From a virus, in IMG/VR virus record IMGVR_UViG_3300030105_002944, positions 1 to 22,356 of that record: 22,356 nt of DNA, one strand, 5' to 3'. Below, piece after piece: positions 7,199 to 22,356 of this stretch. Both the position numbers and the translations under genes were made by a program. The notes under the pieces were generated by a model. The model was not told where the DNA came from, did no database searches, and saw nothing but the letters and a program-made list of their open reading frames with translations. Position 1 is the first letter of the stretch; the number at the start of each line of letters is the position of its first letter.

Positions 7199-7424
7199 GA
7201 TTACCTACTTTTAATGGAGATAATTGATTATCCATAATTTCATCAACATGTGAGTCAATGGCTCTATCTAATTGAAAGTCTGCTTCTTTTTCTTCATTAA
7301 AATCAGCAATAGCATTTAATAAAACAGATCCTCTTTGATTTGATTGTCTGTTTACTTTTCTAATAGCATCTTTAAATGTAAAGATGCTTCCAAAATTAAA
7401 TTCTAATTGTTTTGAATCAAACAT
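7191..7424 (-). CDS. Hypothetical small acidic protein
   Basis: 77 residues from the ATG at 7424, which has GGGAGG six bases upstream and overlaps the previous stop by 8 nt. A longer reading back to 7520 would overlap the previous gene by about 100 nt and has no matching ribosome-binding site, so it is rejected. The N-terminus is MFDSKQLEFNFGSIFTF; the rest is acidic and helical (AIADFNEEKEADFQLDRAID). No family is recognised. It is the second gene of a four-gene overlapping unit driven from R1. Confidence 0.6.
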   Translation of the reverse strand: MFDSKQLEFNFGSIFTFKDAIRKVNRQSNQRGSVLLNAIADFNEEKEADFQLDRAIDSHVDEIMDNQLSPLKVGNHE

Positions 7425-7776
7425 TATTTCCTCCCACAAGTTTAATAGCAGGAATGATATCATTCCCTCTAATTTTAAGATGTTTAAGTAAACCTTTTTC
7501 TGCCGAAAGTTTAGAGTCAAGGTTTAAAGTAATTGACCTCCAAGCTTTCTTTGGGTCATCAACTTTTTTTAATGCAATCATATCAACAACCTCTAGTAAA
7601 AGAGATCGGTCACCGTTTAAAGAACCACCCGCAAAAAACTTTTCATTGCTTACAAGTTTAGCAAGCATAGTTCTTTCTTCTGGTTGGTCTTGTCCTTTTT
7701 TAAGTTTCTTTAAAAACACTGCACTGAAAATTTCATTTCCGATGTAGTTTAGTGTGTCTTCTTTTTTTAGATACAT
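7417..7776 (-). CDS. Hypothetical protein, first gene of R1 operon
   Basis: 119 residues with an ATG preceded by AGGAGAAAGAA, a good ribosome-binding site. It is mixed helix/strand, Lys- and Leu-rich, with no cysteines and no visible catalytic motif. It lies immediately downstream, in transcription direction, of the AT-rich R1 element and heads four translationally overlapping genes ending at 6330. Its place between the replication operon and the structural block does not reveal its role. I recognise no homologue. Confidence 0.65.
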   Translation of the reverse strand: MYLKKEDTLNYIGNEIFSAVFLKKLKKGQDQPEERTMLAKLVSNEKFFAGGSLNGDRSLLLEVVDMIALKKVDDPKKAWRSITLNLDSKLSAEKGLLKHLKIRGNDIIPAIKLVGGNNV

Positions 7777-7813
7777 TTCTTTCTCCTGTATATTTAATAT
7801 AATTTTATATTAC

Positions 7814-7864
7814 ATTATATTATATACATTACAAGTAGTATCTAATTTACCGCAGAAAACAGCC
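7814..7864 (-). promoter_or_regulatory. R1: AT-rich promoter/operator-like element, copy 1 of 3
   Basis: Read on the minus strand, GGCTGTTTTCTGCGG (7850-7864) is followed after 2 nt by AATTAGATA (7839-7847) and then by an AT block holding overlapping TATAAT boxes (plus-strand attatattatataca, 7814-7828). The first ATG (7776) is about 40 nt further on. The same three parts recur at 19880-19926 and 22253-22304, each time before a minus-strand operon and just after the end of another gene. The likely reading is a host-type promoter with an upstream protein-binding site. A replication-related iteron is an alternative. The AT block continues weakly to about 7790. No other gene lies in 7777-7870. 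Confidence 0.5.
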
Positions 7865-7870
7865 AATATT

Positions 7871-17801: not shown

Positions 17802-18001
17802 TAATTGGAACAAGTTGAACGGCCGCATGTTGAGCGACCATTTCTTTTTACTCCTATGTTCCTGTCATAATGTTTCCAGCCAATAATACCTTCCTCCGCA
17901 TCTTCATGATGTATTTCTAAAAGCAAACCAAACCTGGTCTGCTTACAAAACAACCATAAAAATAAATCCGCTAAATAATTAAAAATAAATCGATTTCTCA
18001 T
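17801..18001 (-). CDS. Small membrane-associated protein with Cys-rich tail
   Basis: 66 residues, ATG overlapping the previous stop as ATGA. The hydrophobic N-terminus (FIFNYLADLFLWLFC) could sit in the membrane, then comes EIHHEDAEEGIIGWKHYDR. The end NGRSTCGRSTCSN is a tandem duplication of GRSTC, visible in the DNA as two imperfect 15-nt units near 17808-17838. Three cysteines, one in the membrane segment and two in the tail, are uncommon for such a short protein. Function unknown. Confidence 0.5.
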   Translation of the reverse strand: MRNRFIFNYLADLFLWLFCKQTRFGLLLEIHHEDAEEGIIGWKHYDRNIGVKRNGRSTCGRSTCSN

Positions 18002-18216
18002 CCTGCTCTCCTATCTCCTTTATTAAATCGTACAAGAGAGTAACCTAATCGTCTCATCCCTTGCTCTGCACATTCATGTGAAAACTCTTTTGCACATTTT
18101 GTGCTGCAAAAATACTCTACTATTGCCACAGAAAAACCAGCACTAGACCGCTTAAAATCTTCATGGCAGTTAACACATTTTTTTACTTTAGGGGGCTCTA
18201 TGTTCCACACGTTCAT
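17998..18216 (-). CDS. Small zinc-finger protein
   Basis: 72 residues, with ATGA overlaps on both sides. CVNC (14-17), then YFCSTKCAKEF (about 35-45) and HEC (47-49) give five cysteines and a histidine in a spacing like treble-clef or MYM/TRASH-type zinc fingers (CxxC ... CxxxC). The C-terminus is basic (RFNKGDRRAG). It could bind nucleic acid or partner proteins. It lies in a chain of overlapping small genes downstream of R2. The zinc-binding call is firm by pattern; the target is unknown. Confidence 0.6.
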   Translation of the reverse strand: MNVWNIEPPKVKKCVNCHEDFKRSSAGFSVAIVEYFCSTKCAKEFSHECAEQGMRRLGYSLVRFNKGDRRAG

Positions 18217-18467
18217 GCCACATCCTTATTTAGTTTTATTGAGTCAAGAATAGACTTGCCTGCTTTAGTCATGTGATAAGTAATATCTACCCACTTTAAA
18301 AAAAATGTACCCTGACTAATAGAATACACCCATCCTGCATCAGAGGGAGTAGTTGCTACACCACCACCCTCAAACAGAAACTTATATTTAGGATTACCAC
18401 TAACTGAGTTATTCAATCGTTGAACTCCTGTTACTTTTTGATTTTGTATTTTATATATTTTATTCAT
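18213..18467 (-). CDS. Hypothetical small protein
   Basis: 84 residues, preceded by AATAAAGGAGAA, the 12-nt leader found five times here. The sequence looks beta-rich (YKIQNQKVTGVQRL, then YKFLFEGGGVATT, then GWVYSISQGTFFLKW). It ends in a charged helix (SILDSIKLNKDVA). No catalytic motif and no family recognised. It follows a cassette hairpin and opens the tightly overlapped run down to 17188. Confidence 0.55.
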   Translation of the reverse strand: MNKIYKIQNQKVTGVQRLNNSVSGNPKYKFLFEGGGVATTPSDAGWVYSISQGTFFLKWVDITYHMTKAGKSILDSIKLNKDVA

Positions 18468-18471
18468 TTAT

Positions 18472-18483
18472 TTCTCCTTTATT
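18472..18483 (-). repeat. 12-nt ribosome-binding leader repeat, one of five identical copies
   Basis: The minus-strand sequence AATAAAGGAGAA occurs here and at 18774-18785, 19334-19345, 20984-20995 and 21087-21098, each 4 to 6 nt before an ATG. Elsewhere in the window ribosome-binding sites vary, so this identity marks a set of genes with shared leaders, possibly spread by duplication or kept for equal translation. Confidence 0.65.
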
Positions 18484-18487
18484 TAAA

Positions 18488-18507
18488 AAGGCGCTTTATT
18501 GCGCCTT
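18488..18507 (-). terminator. Stop-codon-embedded hairpin, copy 1
   Basis: Arms AAGGCGC and GCGCCTT with a 6-nt loop on the minus strand, followed by TTTTTAAA. The loop carries the TAA stop of the upstream gene, whose last codons (Lys-Ala-Gln) form the first arm. It is either a weak intrinsic terminator/attenuator or an mRNA stability/processing element, because co-directional genes continue downstream. Confidence 0.55.
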
Positions 18508-18768
18508 AAATATATAGTCAGTTTTATAACCTTTAGGTTTATTAAATAATTCTTTTACCTGCTCTATAACTTTATTTTTATCAGTCCAAGACTCATAAAA
18601 AATATGGTTTGTAGGAATATATTTTATTTTAAAAACAAATTTAAAATCATTTGCAATTTTAATCATTCCATTATTAAAAACCCAAGAATTGTGTTTAGGC
18701 TTAACTTTTATAATCCCGTAATTATTAATATTATCTTTAAAAGTTTTTAATTTATTCCAATTACTCAT
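18496..18768 (-). CDS. Hypothetical small protein ending in KAQ
   Basis: 90 residues, Lys- and Asn-rich, preceded by the AATAAAGGAGAA leader. It looks like a small alpha/beta protein (GIIKVKPKHNSWVFNNG, then FKFVFKIKYIP, then a helix NKVIEQVKELF). No family is recognised. Its final codons are part of the hairpin stem. It is preceded by a second hairpin of the same type, so it forms a complete 'leader-gene-hairpin' cassette. Confidence 0.55.
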   Translation of the reverse strand: MSNWNKLKTFKDNINNYGIIKVKPKHNSWVFNNGMIKIANDFKFVFKIKYIPTNHIFYESWTDKNKVIEQVKELFNKPKGYKTDYIFKAQ

Positions 18769-18789
18769 TTTATTTCTCCTTTATTTTAA

Positions 18790-18809
18790 AAGGCGCTTTA
18801 TTGCGCCTT
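18790..18809 (-). terminator. Stop-codon-embedded hairpin, copy 2
   Basis: The same AAGGCGC / GCGCCTT stem and loop as at 18488-18507, again holding the TAA stop of the upstream gene (Lys-Ala-Gln end), with TTTTAAAA on its 3' side on the minus strand and then the 12-nt leader of the next gene. Confidence 0.55.
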
Positions 18810-19328
18810 AATTAATTTATCGTTTTCTCCCCATTCGTTGTCTACCCTAAAGTAAAGAACAAAAAGACTATAACTTGCATCGTTATGACCTTTTAAAGTG
18901 CACCATGCAGGAGACTCTACATTCAATTCTTTTAAACCAAATGCATTTAAAATACGGCTTCTGCCTCCACCATTATTATGAGGCAAGAATTTCTTTCCAC
19001 CAAAATTAACTTTTTCATCATCATGTAAAAGCCACACAGATTTTTTGTTACCAGTAAACTGATCAGTAACAAGAATTTCTTTTGCTTTAATACGACGGTC
19101 ATTAAGATATAAACCAACAAAAGAATGCAGTCCTTCATTACGACAAAGATCTTCTTTTGCGCGATCTAATTGAGAAGTTTCTCCTTGAGCCCACTGCGAT
19201 AAATATCCGTCAGTATCACAACGATCAAAACTATCACGTGCTCTTTGAGAAGCATCAGATGATGATTGATTAAATTCGTTTGCTTTAGCATTCCAATCTT
19301 TTTTAGTCATTTCATTTCTATTATTCAT
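18798..19328 (-). CDS. Conserved phage protein of unknown function
   Basis: 176 residues with the AATAAAGGAGAA leader. The N-terminus KKDWNAKANEFNQSSSDASQ and the stretch SFDRCDTDGYLSQWAQGE (about 33-50) look strongly constrained; I recall similar 'RCDTDG-LSQWA' sequences in phages and plasmids but no function. The middle appears beta-rich (KEILVTDQFTGNKKSVWLL) and the end acidic, finishing in KAQ within a hairpin. It follows the metallopeptidase gene by 12 nt without a hairpin, so the two are probably co-translated and may act together. Confidence 0.65.
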   Translation of the reverse strand: MNNRNEMTKKDWNAKANEFNQSSSDASQRARDSFDRCDTDGYLSQWAQGETSQLDRAKEDLCRNEGLHSFVGLYLNDRRIKAKEILVTDQFTGNKKSVWLLHDDEKVNFGGKKFLPHNNGGGRSRILNAFGLKELNVESPAWCTLKGHNDASYSLFVLYFRVDNEWGENDKLIKAQ

Positions 19329-19340
19329 TTTATTTCTCCT

Positions 19341-19838
19341 TTATTTTTTATGTTGATGAGAGTAAAATGCTCTCACTAAATTTTCTTCTACTTTATTTGC
19401 TTCGATCTCCCAAGGTGCATCCTCGTAAGAAACATCCTGCATCCAAACACCTAATTCTTTTCCTTCCCAACGAACATGTAATCGACCATCAGAAGACCAC
19501 ACTCTTGTTTGTAAACGGTTTTTACAAGATTGTTCAACGTGAGCACACTCATGCGCTAAAGTTCTTAACTGCTGGAAATAAGGTTGATCTTCCGCTAAAA
19601 CAATTTTAAAATCTCTTGTAGAAATAGATCCATTGTTTGTAAGATTACAAGATCCTAAAGTATCTTTTGCAAGAACAGTTTTTCTAATGTGAACTTTGAT
19701 GCTTAAAGTATTTTGTAGTCTTGTAGAAATTTTAAGTTCATTCAAAAAAAACTTAACAGCGTCTTCATAATTATTTTCTACCCAGCTTAATCTTGGTAGA
19801 GAAACATTTACGTTTAATTTTTTATTTCTTTTTTTCAT
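19341..19838 (-). CDS. Putative HExxH zinc metallopeptidase (SprT-like)
   Basis: 165 residues. LAHECAHVEQ (95-104; zinc ligands H96 and H100, catalytic E97) is an HExxH motif, and PWEIEANKVEE (142-152) offers a third ligand (E144 or E146) about 45 residues later, as in small gluzincin or SprT-like peptidases. The N-terminus is basic, and the rest fits a minimal catalytic domain. No signal peptide is seen, so it should be cytoplasmic. Targets could be a host protein, a DNA-protein crosslink or a virion protein. It is the first gene after R2, with GAAAGAAG as ribosome-binding site. Confidence 0.7.
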   Translation of the reverse strand: MKKRNKKLNVNVSLPRLSWVENNYEDAVKFFLNELKISTRLQNTLSIKVHIRKTVLAKDTLGSCNLTNNGSISTRDFKIVLAEDQPYFQQLRTLAHECAHVEQSCKNRLQTRVWSSDGRLHVRWEGKELGVWMQDVSYEDAPWEIEANKVEENLVRAFYSHQHKK

Positions 19839-19879
19839 AATTTCTTCTTTCTGTTTTGTTATCTATTTTATAATGTAAT

Positions 19880-19926
19880 ATTATATTATATACAACAACT
19901 ATCTAATTATTGGCTGAAAACAGCGG
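19880..19926 (-). promoter_or_regulatory. R2: promoter/operator-like element, copy 2 of 3
   Basis: Minus strand: CCGCTGTTTTCAGCC (19912-19926), then AATTAGATA (19900-19908), then TATAAT boxes within the AT block; attatattatataca at 19880-19894 is identical to R1. It overlaps the end of the methyltransferase gene, whose TAG stop is part of AATTAGATA. Its 15-bp site is the most symmetric of the three (GCTG-TTTT-CAGC). It drives the metallopeptidase operon. Confidence 0.5.
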
Positions 19927-20979
19927 TAAATCAGACTCTAATCTTTTCTCTGCTATCTCAATATATTCCTCATTTAACTCACATAAAATAGCATTACGAT
20001 TATGTTTATTAGATACAACAGCCGTTGTTCCCGCTCCGCCAAACGGATCTAAAACTGTGCCTCCTTCAGGACAACCTGCAAGTATACATGGCTCAATTAA
20101 ATCCATCGGGAACGTTGCAAAGTGTGCGCCCTTAAATGGTTTCGTTGTCACCGTCCAAACGGATCGTTTATTTTTCTTTGTGTAATTATTTGTTTTCAGT
20201 CCAGCCATTCTTGTTCTGCCTGGCGTGTTATTAAGTTTAGTGTTATCACGATCTCTATTGGAATTATCATTAGTTATGCAGTCTTCTTTAATAGCCTCAT
20301 GATCATAATAATATTTTGCATTCTTAGTTAACAAGAAAATATATTCATGAGCTTTAGTACATCTATCTCGTACACTCTCAGGCATTGGGTTTGGTTTATG
20401 CCAAATAATATCTTGTCTCAAGTACCATCCATCTTGTTGCAGGGCAAATGCGACGCGCCACGGTATTCCAATTAAATCTTTTGGTTTAATGCCTTCACTG
20501 GGTGCAGGTCTAGTGACACCGTAATCTTTATCTCCTCGTAATGATTGATTTGTTGTGGTTCGTCGTCCGCCAGACGAATAACTATCACCAAGATTAAGCC
20601 ACACGGTTCCATCATCGCGTAACACTCGTCGTATCTCTCTAAAAAGCATCACTAGGTTATGTGCAAATTGTTCGGGAGTGTCTTCTAGTCCTAGCTGGCT
20701 ATCTTTTCTTACAGCATTACATTTAGGACAAATATCTTTGTAAATAGCATCTCCTACTGCATGACCTTTGTCTGCCATTCCTTTGTGACCTGTTGCAGTG
20801 TTAACACTTATTTTAGTTGTTCTCATGTGAGGACAGTCTGGATCACCACCCTCCCATGTACCTGTTCCATAGTCTCGTAAACCCCAATACGGAGGTGATG
20901 TTACAACCGTATTGATACTTTGGTCGTCTAACGTTTTTAACGTGTCAAAATTATTGCCTTTTAATATTTTCGTTGTCAT
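19903..20979 (-). CDS. DNA methyltransferase (N4-cytosine or N6-adenine, SPPY type)
   Basis: 358 residues from the ATG at 20979, chosen because AAAGGAGAA precedes it and a longer reading to 21042 would run through the 24-residue peptide gene. Motif IV is TSPPYWGLRDYG (27-38), and motif I lies near the C-terminus as DPFGGAGTTA (311-320), the permuted order of beta-class methyltransferases. SPPY is typical of N4-cytosine enzymes but also occurs in N6-adenine ones. An insert after motif IV carries C49-x-H51 and CPKC (84-87), a likely zinc knuckle. No restriction gene is adjacent, so it probably protects phage DNA or modifies regulation. It belongs to the R3 operon, third gene after the 24-residue peptide. 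Confidence 0.93.
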   Translation of the reverse strand: MTTKILKGNNFDTLKTLDDQSINTVVTSPPYWGLRDYGTGTWEGGDPDCPHMRTTKISVNTATGHKGMADKGHAVGDAIYKDICPKCNAVRKDSQLGLEDTPEQFAHNLVMLFREIRRVLRDDGTVWLNLGDSYSSGGRRTTTNQSLRGDKDYGVTRPAPSEGIKPKDLIGIPWRVAFALQQDGWYLRQDIIWHKPNPMPESVRDRCTKAHEYIFLLTKNAKYYYDHEAIKEDCITNDNSNRDRDNTKLNNTPGRTRMAGLKTNNYTKKNKRSVWTVTTKPFKGAHFATFPMDLIEPCILAGCPEGGTVLDPFGGAGTTAVVSNKHNRNAILCELNEEYIEIAEKRLESDLPLFSANN

Positions 20980-21005
20980 TCTATTCTCCTTTATTTTATT
21001 ATTTA

Positions 21006-21080
21006 TTATATCCAATGTGGGATATGTACGGCTATTAAACAAGCAAACAAATATAAGATAACCCAGTGTGCTTTAAACAT
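21006..21080 (-). CDS. 24-residue membrane peptide
   Basis: ATG at 21080, TAA at 21006, with AATAAAGGAGAA 6 nt before the ATG, one of five identical leaders. The peptide has a short basic start (MFKAH), a hydrophobic core (WVILYLFACLIAV) and the end HIPHWI, which would suit one membrane pass. It fills the gap between the hairpin after the 367-residue gene and the methyltransferase leader. Size and hydrophobicity allow a regulatory or lysis-related role, but none can be assigned. Confidence 0.55.
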   Translation of the reverse strand: MFKAHWVILYLFACLIAVHIPHWI

Positions 21081-21103
21081 TTTTGTTTCTCCTTTATTTT
21101 AGA

Positions 21104-21121
21104 AGGCGCTTTATTGCGCCT
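21104..21121 (-). terminator. Stop-codon-embedded hairpin, copy 3
   Basis: Stem AGGCGC / GCGCCT with a 6-nt loop holding the TAA stop of the 367-residue gene, which ends Glu-Ala-Gln. It is followed by TTCTAAAATAAAGGAG, weaker in U than the other two copies, and leads into the 24-residue peptide. An attenuator or RNA-stability role is more likely than full termination. Confidence 0.5.
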
Positions 21122-22214
21122 CCTTCCTTTCTTTTGCTGTTAATTGCTGGCTCCAGTTGTCAACTTTCTTTTGTTCTTTTTCAATTGTTTGATTTAAACT
21201 TACAAGTCTATTGTTCCAAACAAACAAAAGTTGAGAAAGAGTAGTGTCTTCTTTTACTCTTAACTGGTCAAGATAAACGGGTTGATCTTTAGCAGGCAAA
21301 TCAATTTTAAGTTCCCAGTTAATCCATCTGCTAAAAGGATTGCCTCTTCTATCATAATATCTAACGTCTTCTTTGTATCTATCACCATGAGTTTTATAAA
21401 GTTTTGATAACTCTTCCTCATACGCTACATACTCAGCAAATAATGCTTTAAGTTTAAGAACAGTTTCTTCGTTAGGTTTTTTATTAAGAAGGTGATCTCT
21501 TTCATTCTCAACCATTTTAATAAAAGCAACTTTACCTTCAGTTGATTTCTCCCACACTTGAAGACGACTACCTACACAAGGACCAGCACGAAAACCTAAT
21601 TGCTGGAAGCCATGATCATAGATAACACCATTTCTGTTACCTTCGTCCCATCTTTCAATGTAACGCTCACAGGCACCGCAAACAGCACGATTTTCTTTTG
21701 CATATTTTTCCTGTTTTCTTTTATAATCATCCTCTTCTTTGATGCGAATTTTATCCTGATACTGGAAAAACTTAGATACCCAGACATCATATTTAAAAGT
21801 AGTCATATCATAAACTTCCCAAAGTTTCGAGGAAGAGCCTTCACTGTAAGGAGGAGAAACATAACTAATGTTGGAGGCGGTACAATGATCAAGAAAAACA
21901 GGGTCAGCCCATTCATACGTATGAACTTGATGTCCCAACGTTTCATCAAAATCGGAGTGCTGCTTACTGATCCCCCAAACAACATATTTAGTTGGATGCT
22001 TCTCCCATCCTTTCCTGCAACGGTAAATAGCAAATTTATTATTAAATTTAAAAAGGTCATAAACTTTACCTTCCTCATCAAAAGTTTTATAGATAGGAAA
22101 TTTATGTTTGCCAGCAGTTGCAATACTAATTGTTTTTGATTCAAACATAGCTCTGTGAGGAAAGTATTCAAAAGTTATTTTAGCGATTGGTATGTATACT
22201 TGTTTAATATTCAT
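21111..22214 (-). CDS. Uncharacterised protein with CxxC-HG-CxG zinc motif
   Basis: 367 residues, ribosome-binding site GAAGGAATAAA. The N-terminal 150 residues look beta-rich with many aromatic residues (YEWADP, KLWEVYDMTTFKYDVW). The centre has VCGACERY (C179, C182), DHGFQQLGFRAGPCVGSR (H201, C213, G215); C-x2-C ... HG ... C-x-G is a zinc-site pattern I recall from many unnamed phage and plasmid proteins. The C-terminal 150 residues are charged helical, probably coiled coil. It is the first gene after R3 and shares its operon with a methyltransferase. Function unknown; nucleic-acid binding is plausible. Confidence 0.75.
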   Translation of the reverse strand: MNIKQVYIPIAKITFEYFPHRAMFESKTISIATAGKHKFPIYKTFDEEGKVYDLFKFNNKFAIYRCRKGWEKHPTKYVVWGISKQHSDFDETLGHQVHTYEWADPVFLDHCTASNISYVSPPYSEGSSSKLWEVYDMTTFKYDVWVSKFFQYQDKIRIKEEDDYKRKQEKYAKENRAVCGACERYIERWDEGNRNGVIYDHGFQQLGFRAGPCVGSRLQVWEKSTEGKVAFIKMVENERDHLLNKKPNEETVLKLKALFAEYVAYEEELSKLYKTHGDRYKEDVRYYDRRGNPFSRWINWELKIDLPAKDQPVYLDQLRVKEDTTLSQLLFVWNNRLVSLNQTIEKEQKKVDNWSQQLTAKERKEAQ

Positions 22215-22252
22215 TTTATTCCTTCTTTCTATTTGTTATAGTTATATATAAT

Positions 22253-22304
22253 ATTATATTACATAGGAGTAAATACTTATCTAATTTATGGCTGTTTTCT
22301 GGGG
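22253..22304 (-). promoter_or_regulatory. R3: promoter/operator-like element, copy 3 of 3
   Basis: Minus strand: CCCCAGAAAACAGCC (22290-22304), AATTAGATA (22278-22286) and an AT block with TATAAT (plus-strand attatattacata, 22253-22265, one base different from R1 and R2). The 15-bp site is the reverse complement of that in R1 apart from one base, so the site is inverted while the promoter part keeps its direction. The ATG of the downstream gene lies about 40 nt away at 22214. Confidence 0.5.
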
Positions 22305-22356
22305 CTATTTGGATGCTTCGATAACCGCGTTACACCACCAATTAAGATCTTTTTCT
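22305..22356 (-). CDS. 3' end of a further minus-strand gene (cut by window edge)
   Basis: A reading frame enters from the right edge and stops at TAG 22305. The visible end, EKDLNWWCNAVIEASK, is protein-like, with no rare features. Its stop lies one base pair outside the R3 15-bp site, mirroring the way the other copies adjoin the ends of polA and the methyltransferase. Too short to identify. Confidence 0.4.
   Translation of the reverse strand, partial: EKDLNWWCNAVIEASK

Follow-up and report, generated by a model that had tools for sequence, protein, structure and literature searches.

The accessory island and its junctions

The window, that is, the whole stretch of DNA analysed, is a virus record of 22,356 bases in which 28 genes were counted. 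Because its DNA polymerase has 51% identity to the counterpart in Pelagibacter phage HTVC023P, and its gene E has a homologue with 60% identity in Pelagibacter phage HTVC106P, the virus is likely a marine, Pelagibacter-phage-like one, presumably with a Pelagibacter-type host. The genes and junctions considered here are the following.

21111-22214, minus strand: gene A, 367 aa, ending EAQ-stop in J3; present or absent among relatives
21078-21124, minus strand: junction J3 (A to 24-aa ORF), whose hairpin has the core of the other two on a 9-bp stem at 21124-21101; stop of A 21113-21111, leader 21098-21087, ATG 21080-21078
21006-21080, minus strand: 24-aa ORF (MFKAHWVILYLFACLIAVHIPHWI), between J3 and the methyltransferase leader
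20984-20995, minus strand: leader AATAAAGGAGAA without a hairpin, before the methyltransferase
19903-20979, minus strand: N6/N4 DNA methyltransferase, 358 aa from its ATG; a different, 211-aa methyltransferase stands instead in L006/L004
19341-19838, minus strand: gene B, 165 aa, a member of PHROG 10499 with a weak metallopeptidase-like match
19334-19345, minus strand: leader AATAAAGGAGAA without a hairpin, before gene C
18798-19328, minus strand: gene C, 176 aa, ending LIKAQ-stop in J2
18766-18809, minus strand: junction J2 (C to D), hairpin identical to that of J1 at 18809-18790; stop of C 18800-18798, leader 18785-18774, ATG of D 18768-18766
18496-18768, minus strand: gene D, 90 aa, ending IFKAQ-stop in J1; missing in L006/L004 and L008
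18465-18509, minus strand: junction J1 (D to E), hairpin AAGGCGC-AATAAA-GCGCCTT at 18507-18488; TAA of D 18498-18496 in the loop, leader AATAAAGGAGAA 18483-18472, ATG of E 18467-18465
18213-18467, minus strand: gene E, 84 aa; preceded in relatives by C, D, X or others; homologue in HTVC106P
17998-18216, minus strand: gene F, 72 aa, with a weak match to zinc fingers; it forms the right edge of the accessory island and in L008 comes straight after the C hairpin

All three junctions match model R1. The hairpin core is GGCGC-AATAAA-GCGCC, with the TAA stop of the upstream gene within the AATAAA loop, and GGCGCAATAAAGCGCC is found on the minus strand at 18505-18490, 18807-18792 and 21120-21105. An earlier note on this DNA had claimed that the last codons of three minus-strand genes, Ala-Gln-stop, fall in an identical hairpin, and the sequence and its ORFs bear this out: the C-termini are KAQ-stop (ORFs 18496-18768, 90 aa, and 18798-19328, 176 aa) and EAQ-stop (21111-22214, 367 aa). 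Its claim that the next gene follows a repeated leader stands, with one correction. There are exactly five copies of AATAAAGGAGAA in the window (minus-strand starts 21098, 20995, 19345, 18785 and 18483), but only three have a hairpin upstream, none being present before the methyltransferase and the 176-aa gene C. The proteins were also said to be unrelated; indeed, the three upstream proteins have no mutual similarity by blastp, and the five upstream and seven downstream genes tested at element junctions are all unrelated.

The stems are 7-9 bp long and the repeated junction spans about 40 bp. RNA folding of each window hairpin gives -11.6 to -16.1 kcal/mol, with z of -3.7 to -6.0. Only five positions in the window pass a scan for stems of at least 6 with at least 4 GC pairs, and three of these five coincide with stops of the 28 genes, against about 0.1 expected at random placement. 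The coincidence of stop and hairpin in the window is not due to chance. Among 140 genes of HTVC023P and HTVC027P (50 kb scanned in each), no stop codon lies in a hairpin, nor does any in the first 8.5 kb of HTVC106P.

The island (17998-22214, and loci L053, L058, L072, L084 and L085) is hypervariable and bounded by endonuclease-like and zinc-finger-like genes, and its reassortment involves some ten small genes and two distinct methyltransferases. Gene A has no match in Pfam or PHROGs, and a search of bacterial genomes found no relatives of gene E. The HTVC106P locus (L133), which has the gene E homologue, also has, at 1427-1552, a gene whose annotation is alternative ribosome-rescue factor A. 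Similar AT-rich, promoter-like stretches of the ATATAATATAATATTA type lie on the minus strand at 22215-22290, 19839-19905 and 7797-7827. They precede genes A and B and the gene at 7417-7776, respectively, and may be early promoters of the operons. A conserved CAGAAAACAGCCA motif (CCCCAGAAAACAGCCATAA in most) is found at 22289-22317 (minus) and 7837-7865 (plus), just before the promoter-like stretch, and also in many relatives (L051-L059, upstream of gene B). A separate, terminator-like hairpin at 13202-13180 follows a Pam3 gp34-like gene; one stands in the same place in L076 and L077, with a different sequence in each.

A sister stem and paired changes

A sister stem, GGCTC-AATAAA-GAGCC, is present at the end of gene K in L053 and L068. 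In L071, the gene K end has this stem with a short AATA loop and a TAG stop, and in L127 the stem ends an unrelated 67-aa gene. The gene A homologue of L046 ends in GCGGCTC-AATCAT-GAGCCGC, with a TGA stop. The sister-stem genes end Ala-Gln-stop, excepting that of L046 (Ala-Gln-Ser-stop). Downstream of the sister hairpin there are four arrangements: E (L079, where the contig edge cuts the hairpin), s37-E (L068), MYG-s37-E (L053) and MYG-E (L071).

Across ten distinct junctions, which are phylogenetically related and three of which come from one gene family, 95% of cells pair, and in three of the stem pairs both partners have changed. The covariation score was reached by none of 500 shuffles, and slid controls were 34-59% paired. 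Since three stem pairs change on both sides, the hairpin is, on the evidence of these related sequences, maintained as a structure.

Rfam returned no family at gathering score and otherwise chance-level matches only. A distant blastn search of the junction against isolate phages gave weak matches, none convincing; those listed cover about half its length, from near the 3′ arm of the hairpin through the leader. Most exact 16-mer matches in viral contigs are unrelated sequences that lack the leader, and these were set aside, as was an opposite-strand model match in L104 (5578-5624), which is not the element. Besides the known loci, a scan of viral contigs for CAATAAAGNGCC plus GGAGAA yielded L127 as the only real further case.

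Gene order around the junction in close relatives

A hairpin identical to that of the window is carried by L004/L006, L008 and L104; all element-bearing relatives are metagenome contigs. L004 and L006 are one virus in two metagenomes (99.97% identity over 5785 bp). The window, L006/L004 and L008 have island stretches in common at 94-99.9% identity, in these orders:

Window: A-hairpin-24-aa ORF-methyltransferase-B-C-hairpin-D-hairpin-E-F
L006: K-A-hairpin-211-aa methyltransferase-B-C-hairpin-E-g147-F
L008: K-24-aa ORF-methyltransferase-B-C-hairpin-F

Thus, the C hairpin is followed by D in the window, by E in L006/L004 and by F in L008, and the A hairpin is followed by the 24-aa ORF and methyltransferase in the window and by another methyltransferase in L006. 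The upstream neighbour of E also varies, being D, C or, in L104, a fourth gene, X, which precedes the identical hairpin and leader (X-hairpin-E).

The earlier note had suggested comparing related phages for gene content that differs while the junction is kept, and among these close relatives (the window, L006/L004, L008 and L104) the result is positive. Its view of the genes as exchangeable modules is accordingly upheld as far as different genes stand at one junction in close relatives, but the island also reshuffles at junctions without a hairpin: such reassortment is seen in about 20 relatives, for the most part where the hairpin is lacking. Therefore, the element is not required for gene exchange.

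The high-identity blocks stop at hairpin-leader units, at window positions 21078 and 21082 (J3) and 18761 and 18777 (J2). At the right edge of L008 there is a short Shine-Dalgarno-like match, TAAATAAAGGA versus TAAATAAGGA; the leader itself may also act as microhomology. In a count made by hand, six of nine exchange edges fall in hairpin units, an enrichment over random positions (p about 5e-6) but not over gene junctions generally (p about 0.13).

Boundaries with and without the hairpin

In five gene families, junctions that have the hairpin were compared with those that lack it for the spacing between a stop and the next start. With the hairpin, the distance is +23 to +30 nt (n = 11 junctions); in homologues lacking it, -14 to +1 nt (n = 15 junctions). 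The end of gene C reads AAGGAGGATCAATAATG without the hairpin and AAGGCGCAATAAAGCGCC...AAAGGAGAAATAAAATG with it. Where C and D lack the hairpin, the Shine-Dalgarno sequence lies inside the upstream gene and the boundary has the form TAATG or ATGA: hairpin-less relatives of C (e.g., L072, L084 and L085) end LIKEDQ-stop with a TAATG overlap with the next gene, and the gene D homologue of L088 also ends in a TAATG overlap. In the place of the hairpin junction, then, relatives have genes that overlap or abut. At larger distance, too, a gene pair may overlap instead of having the hairpin, as A does with the 211-aa methyltransferase gene in L076.

The overlapping boundary of the hairpin-less relatives is probably translationally coupled. 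The most efficient coupling is seen at spacings of -4 to +3 nt, and in a set of studies it drops about 3- to 10-fold towards +40 nt (PMC12548453). One study, as cited in that review, found coupling undiminished out to +25 nt, which counts against reading the hairpin junction as an insulator.

A proposed portable junction element

We propose that, within the hypervariable accessory island, the hairpin and leader together act as a portable element at gene junctions, providing both homology for exchange and an independent ribosome-binding site, and we give this reading a probability of roughly 55%. The element would consist of the hairpin, with the upstream stop in its loop, and then a Shine-Dalgarno leader that is unstructured and rich in A; the next gene would start about 29 nt past the stop. 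The flanking genes would in this way be made self-contained, each with its own stop and its own leader, the coding overlap being gone. Self-contained genes would, therefore, be exchangeable by recombination within the repeated junction of some 40 bp, which would serve as homology, and recombination there would damage neither protein.

At the level of RNA, the hairpin most likely insulates the neighbours, so that each gene would initiate independently. It would form only when the stop is free of ribosomes, and would block ribosome carry-over, weakly attenuate, or both; a hairpin boundary should then reduce coupling relative to overlapping boundaries. That recombination uses the element, and that the element has an effect on the RNA, are what we infer from the arrangements described above.

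It is tempting, though here we are on more doubtful ground, to propose a promoter-less standard linker that spreads by recombination, each time converting an overlapping, coupled boundary into an insulated, interchangeable one, and that is selected for exchangeability or for insensitivity to neighbours. Mosaicism is often attributed to recombination at gene boundaries, and overlapping, coupled boundaries should resist it. Here, gene families occur both with the hairpin linker and without it, and gap and overlap contrast cleanly. This makes it possible to test how coupled genes of an operon turn into modules that can be exchanged, in marine phages that are difficult to study genetically.

Alternative explanations

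As possible controls at the level of RNA, the earlier note had named attenuation, RNase protection and termination-reinitiation. The hairpins could instead be partial, translation-sensitive terminators, or attenuators. A ribosome at the stop would cover the hairpin and allow read-through, transcription would stop when translation fails, and the shuffling would be incidental. Five U residues follow GCGCC in J1 and four in J2, and the same core followed by a T9 run is found, on one strand, in the unrelated contigs L005 and L007. In addition, translation represses a terminator that lies a few nucleotides past a stop codon, bringing it from about 90% down to below 10% (PMC4824070); any attenuation here would therefore depend on upstream translation. 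However, the U tract varies (UUUUU in J1, UUUU in J2, UUCU in J3), and L071, L127 and L046 have no run; a terminator scan lists none of the three window hairpins on the coding strand; and canonical terminators elsewhere in these phages (L076, L077) look different. Nor is there room for a promoter between the hairpin and the next start, so strong termination would silence the downstream genes. The loss of the U tract in some junctions speaks against a conserved intrinsic terminator, and the function that the junctions have in common is not simply intrinsic termination. We regard the attenuator reading as unlikely overall.

According to a second alternative, the hairpins act in mRNA processing or 3′-end protection, giving each operon gene its own RNA stability. 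In its favour, the stems are stable (-11.6 to -16.1 kcal/mol) and paired changes preserve them although the U tract is not conserved. However, nothing points to a particular nuclease, and RNase III generally needs longer stems than the 7-9 bp found here; moreover, this function by itself leaves the exchange of genes at the junction unexplained. We consider it improbable.

False gene swaps might also have arisen in assembly, by the joining of co-occurring strains at repeated junctions, given that every sequence with the element is a metagenome contig and that the repeated stretch is about 40 bp long. This is very improbable: the C-hairpin-E order is identical in two metagenomes (L004 and L006, 99.97% over 5785 bp), other gains and losses (K, g147, the 3′ side of the methyltransferase) have edges without a hairpin repeat, and in other phages the sister hairpin shows the same behaviour. 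Finally, integron-like, site-specific cassettes with the hairpin as attachment site would account for a gene with its 3′ hairpin repeated in a single orientation and for cassettes gained and lost, but the attC core sites GTTRRRY/RYYYAAC are absent from the junction sequences, no recombinase, of the tyrosine type or otherwise, is among the proteins scanned in the window (a fragment record), and the same island swaps genes at hairpin-less junctions, which leaves this reading scarcely credible. Both were considered and are disfavoured on this evidence.

Comparison with known systems

Literature searches turned up no description of this element among titles and abstracts, and in a paper on HTVC023P-type Pelagibacter phages (PMC9599517) none of the words hairpin, stem-loop and terminator occurs. 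Like intrinsic, Rho-independent terminators at gene ends, the element has a GC-rich 3′ stem, with four or five U residues in J1 and J2. It differs in that the U tract is not conserved, no promoter follows, and the loop holds the stop, a position at which translation would keep termination down. Translationally coupled TAATG pairs (reviewed in PMC12548453) are the form taken by most hairpin-less versions of these junctions; the hairpin version is without overlap and supplies an independent leader.

The PeSLs (promoter early stem-loops) of T4-type phages (Arbiol 2010; Comeau 2014; as cited in PMC4503421 and PMC3950731) are repeated stem-loops between small accessory genes, for which a part in modular gene shuffling has been proposed. 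The present element resembles PeSLs in how it would work: a stem-loop is repeated here at several junctions of an accessory region, and gene content between the elements differs among close relatives. Unlike PeSLs, the element holds no early promoter: the stop lies inside the loop, and the downstream part is a Shine-Dalgarno leader of about 20-25 nt between stem and start, by inspection too little for a -35/-10 promoter plus a leader. Because it lacks the promoter, we do not file it as a PeSL.

In cluster K mycobacteriophages, a short conserved sequence, the 13-bp SAS GGGATAGGAGCCC, stands at the start of many unrelated non-structural genes, and about half of the copies have inverted repeats just upstream, the ESAS, whose sequence differs between subclusters (PMC3203893). 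The ESAS are 17-bp imperfect repeats with a spacer of mostly 4-13 bp, are not described as holding a stop codon, and are nearly always kept by a given gene family across phages (PMC3203893). The present element resembles this system but differs in its leader AATAAAGGAGAA, its stems of 7-9 bp and the stop codon in its loop, and, unlike the ESAS, the hairpin is present or absent within one gene family.
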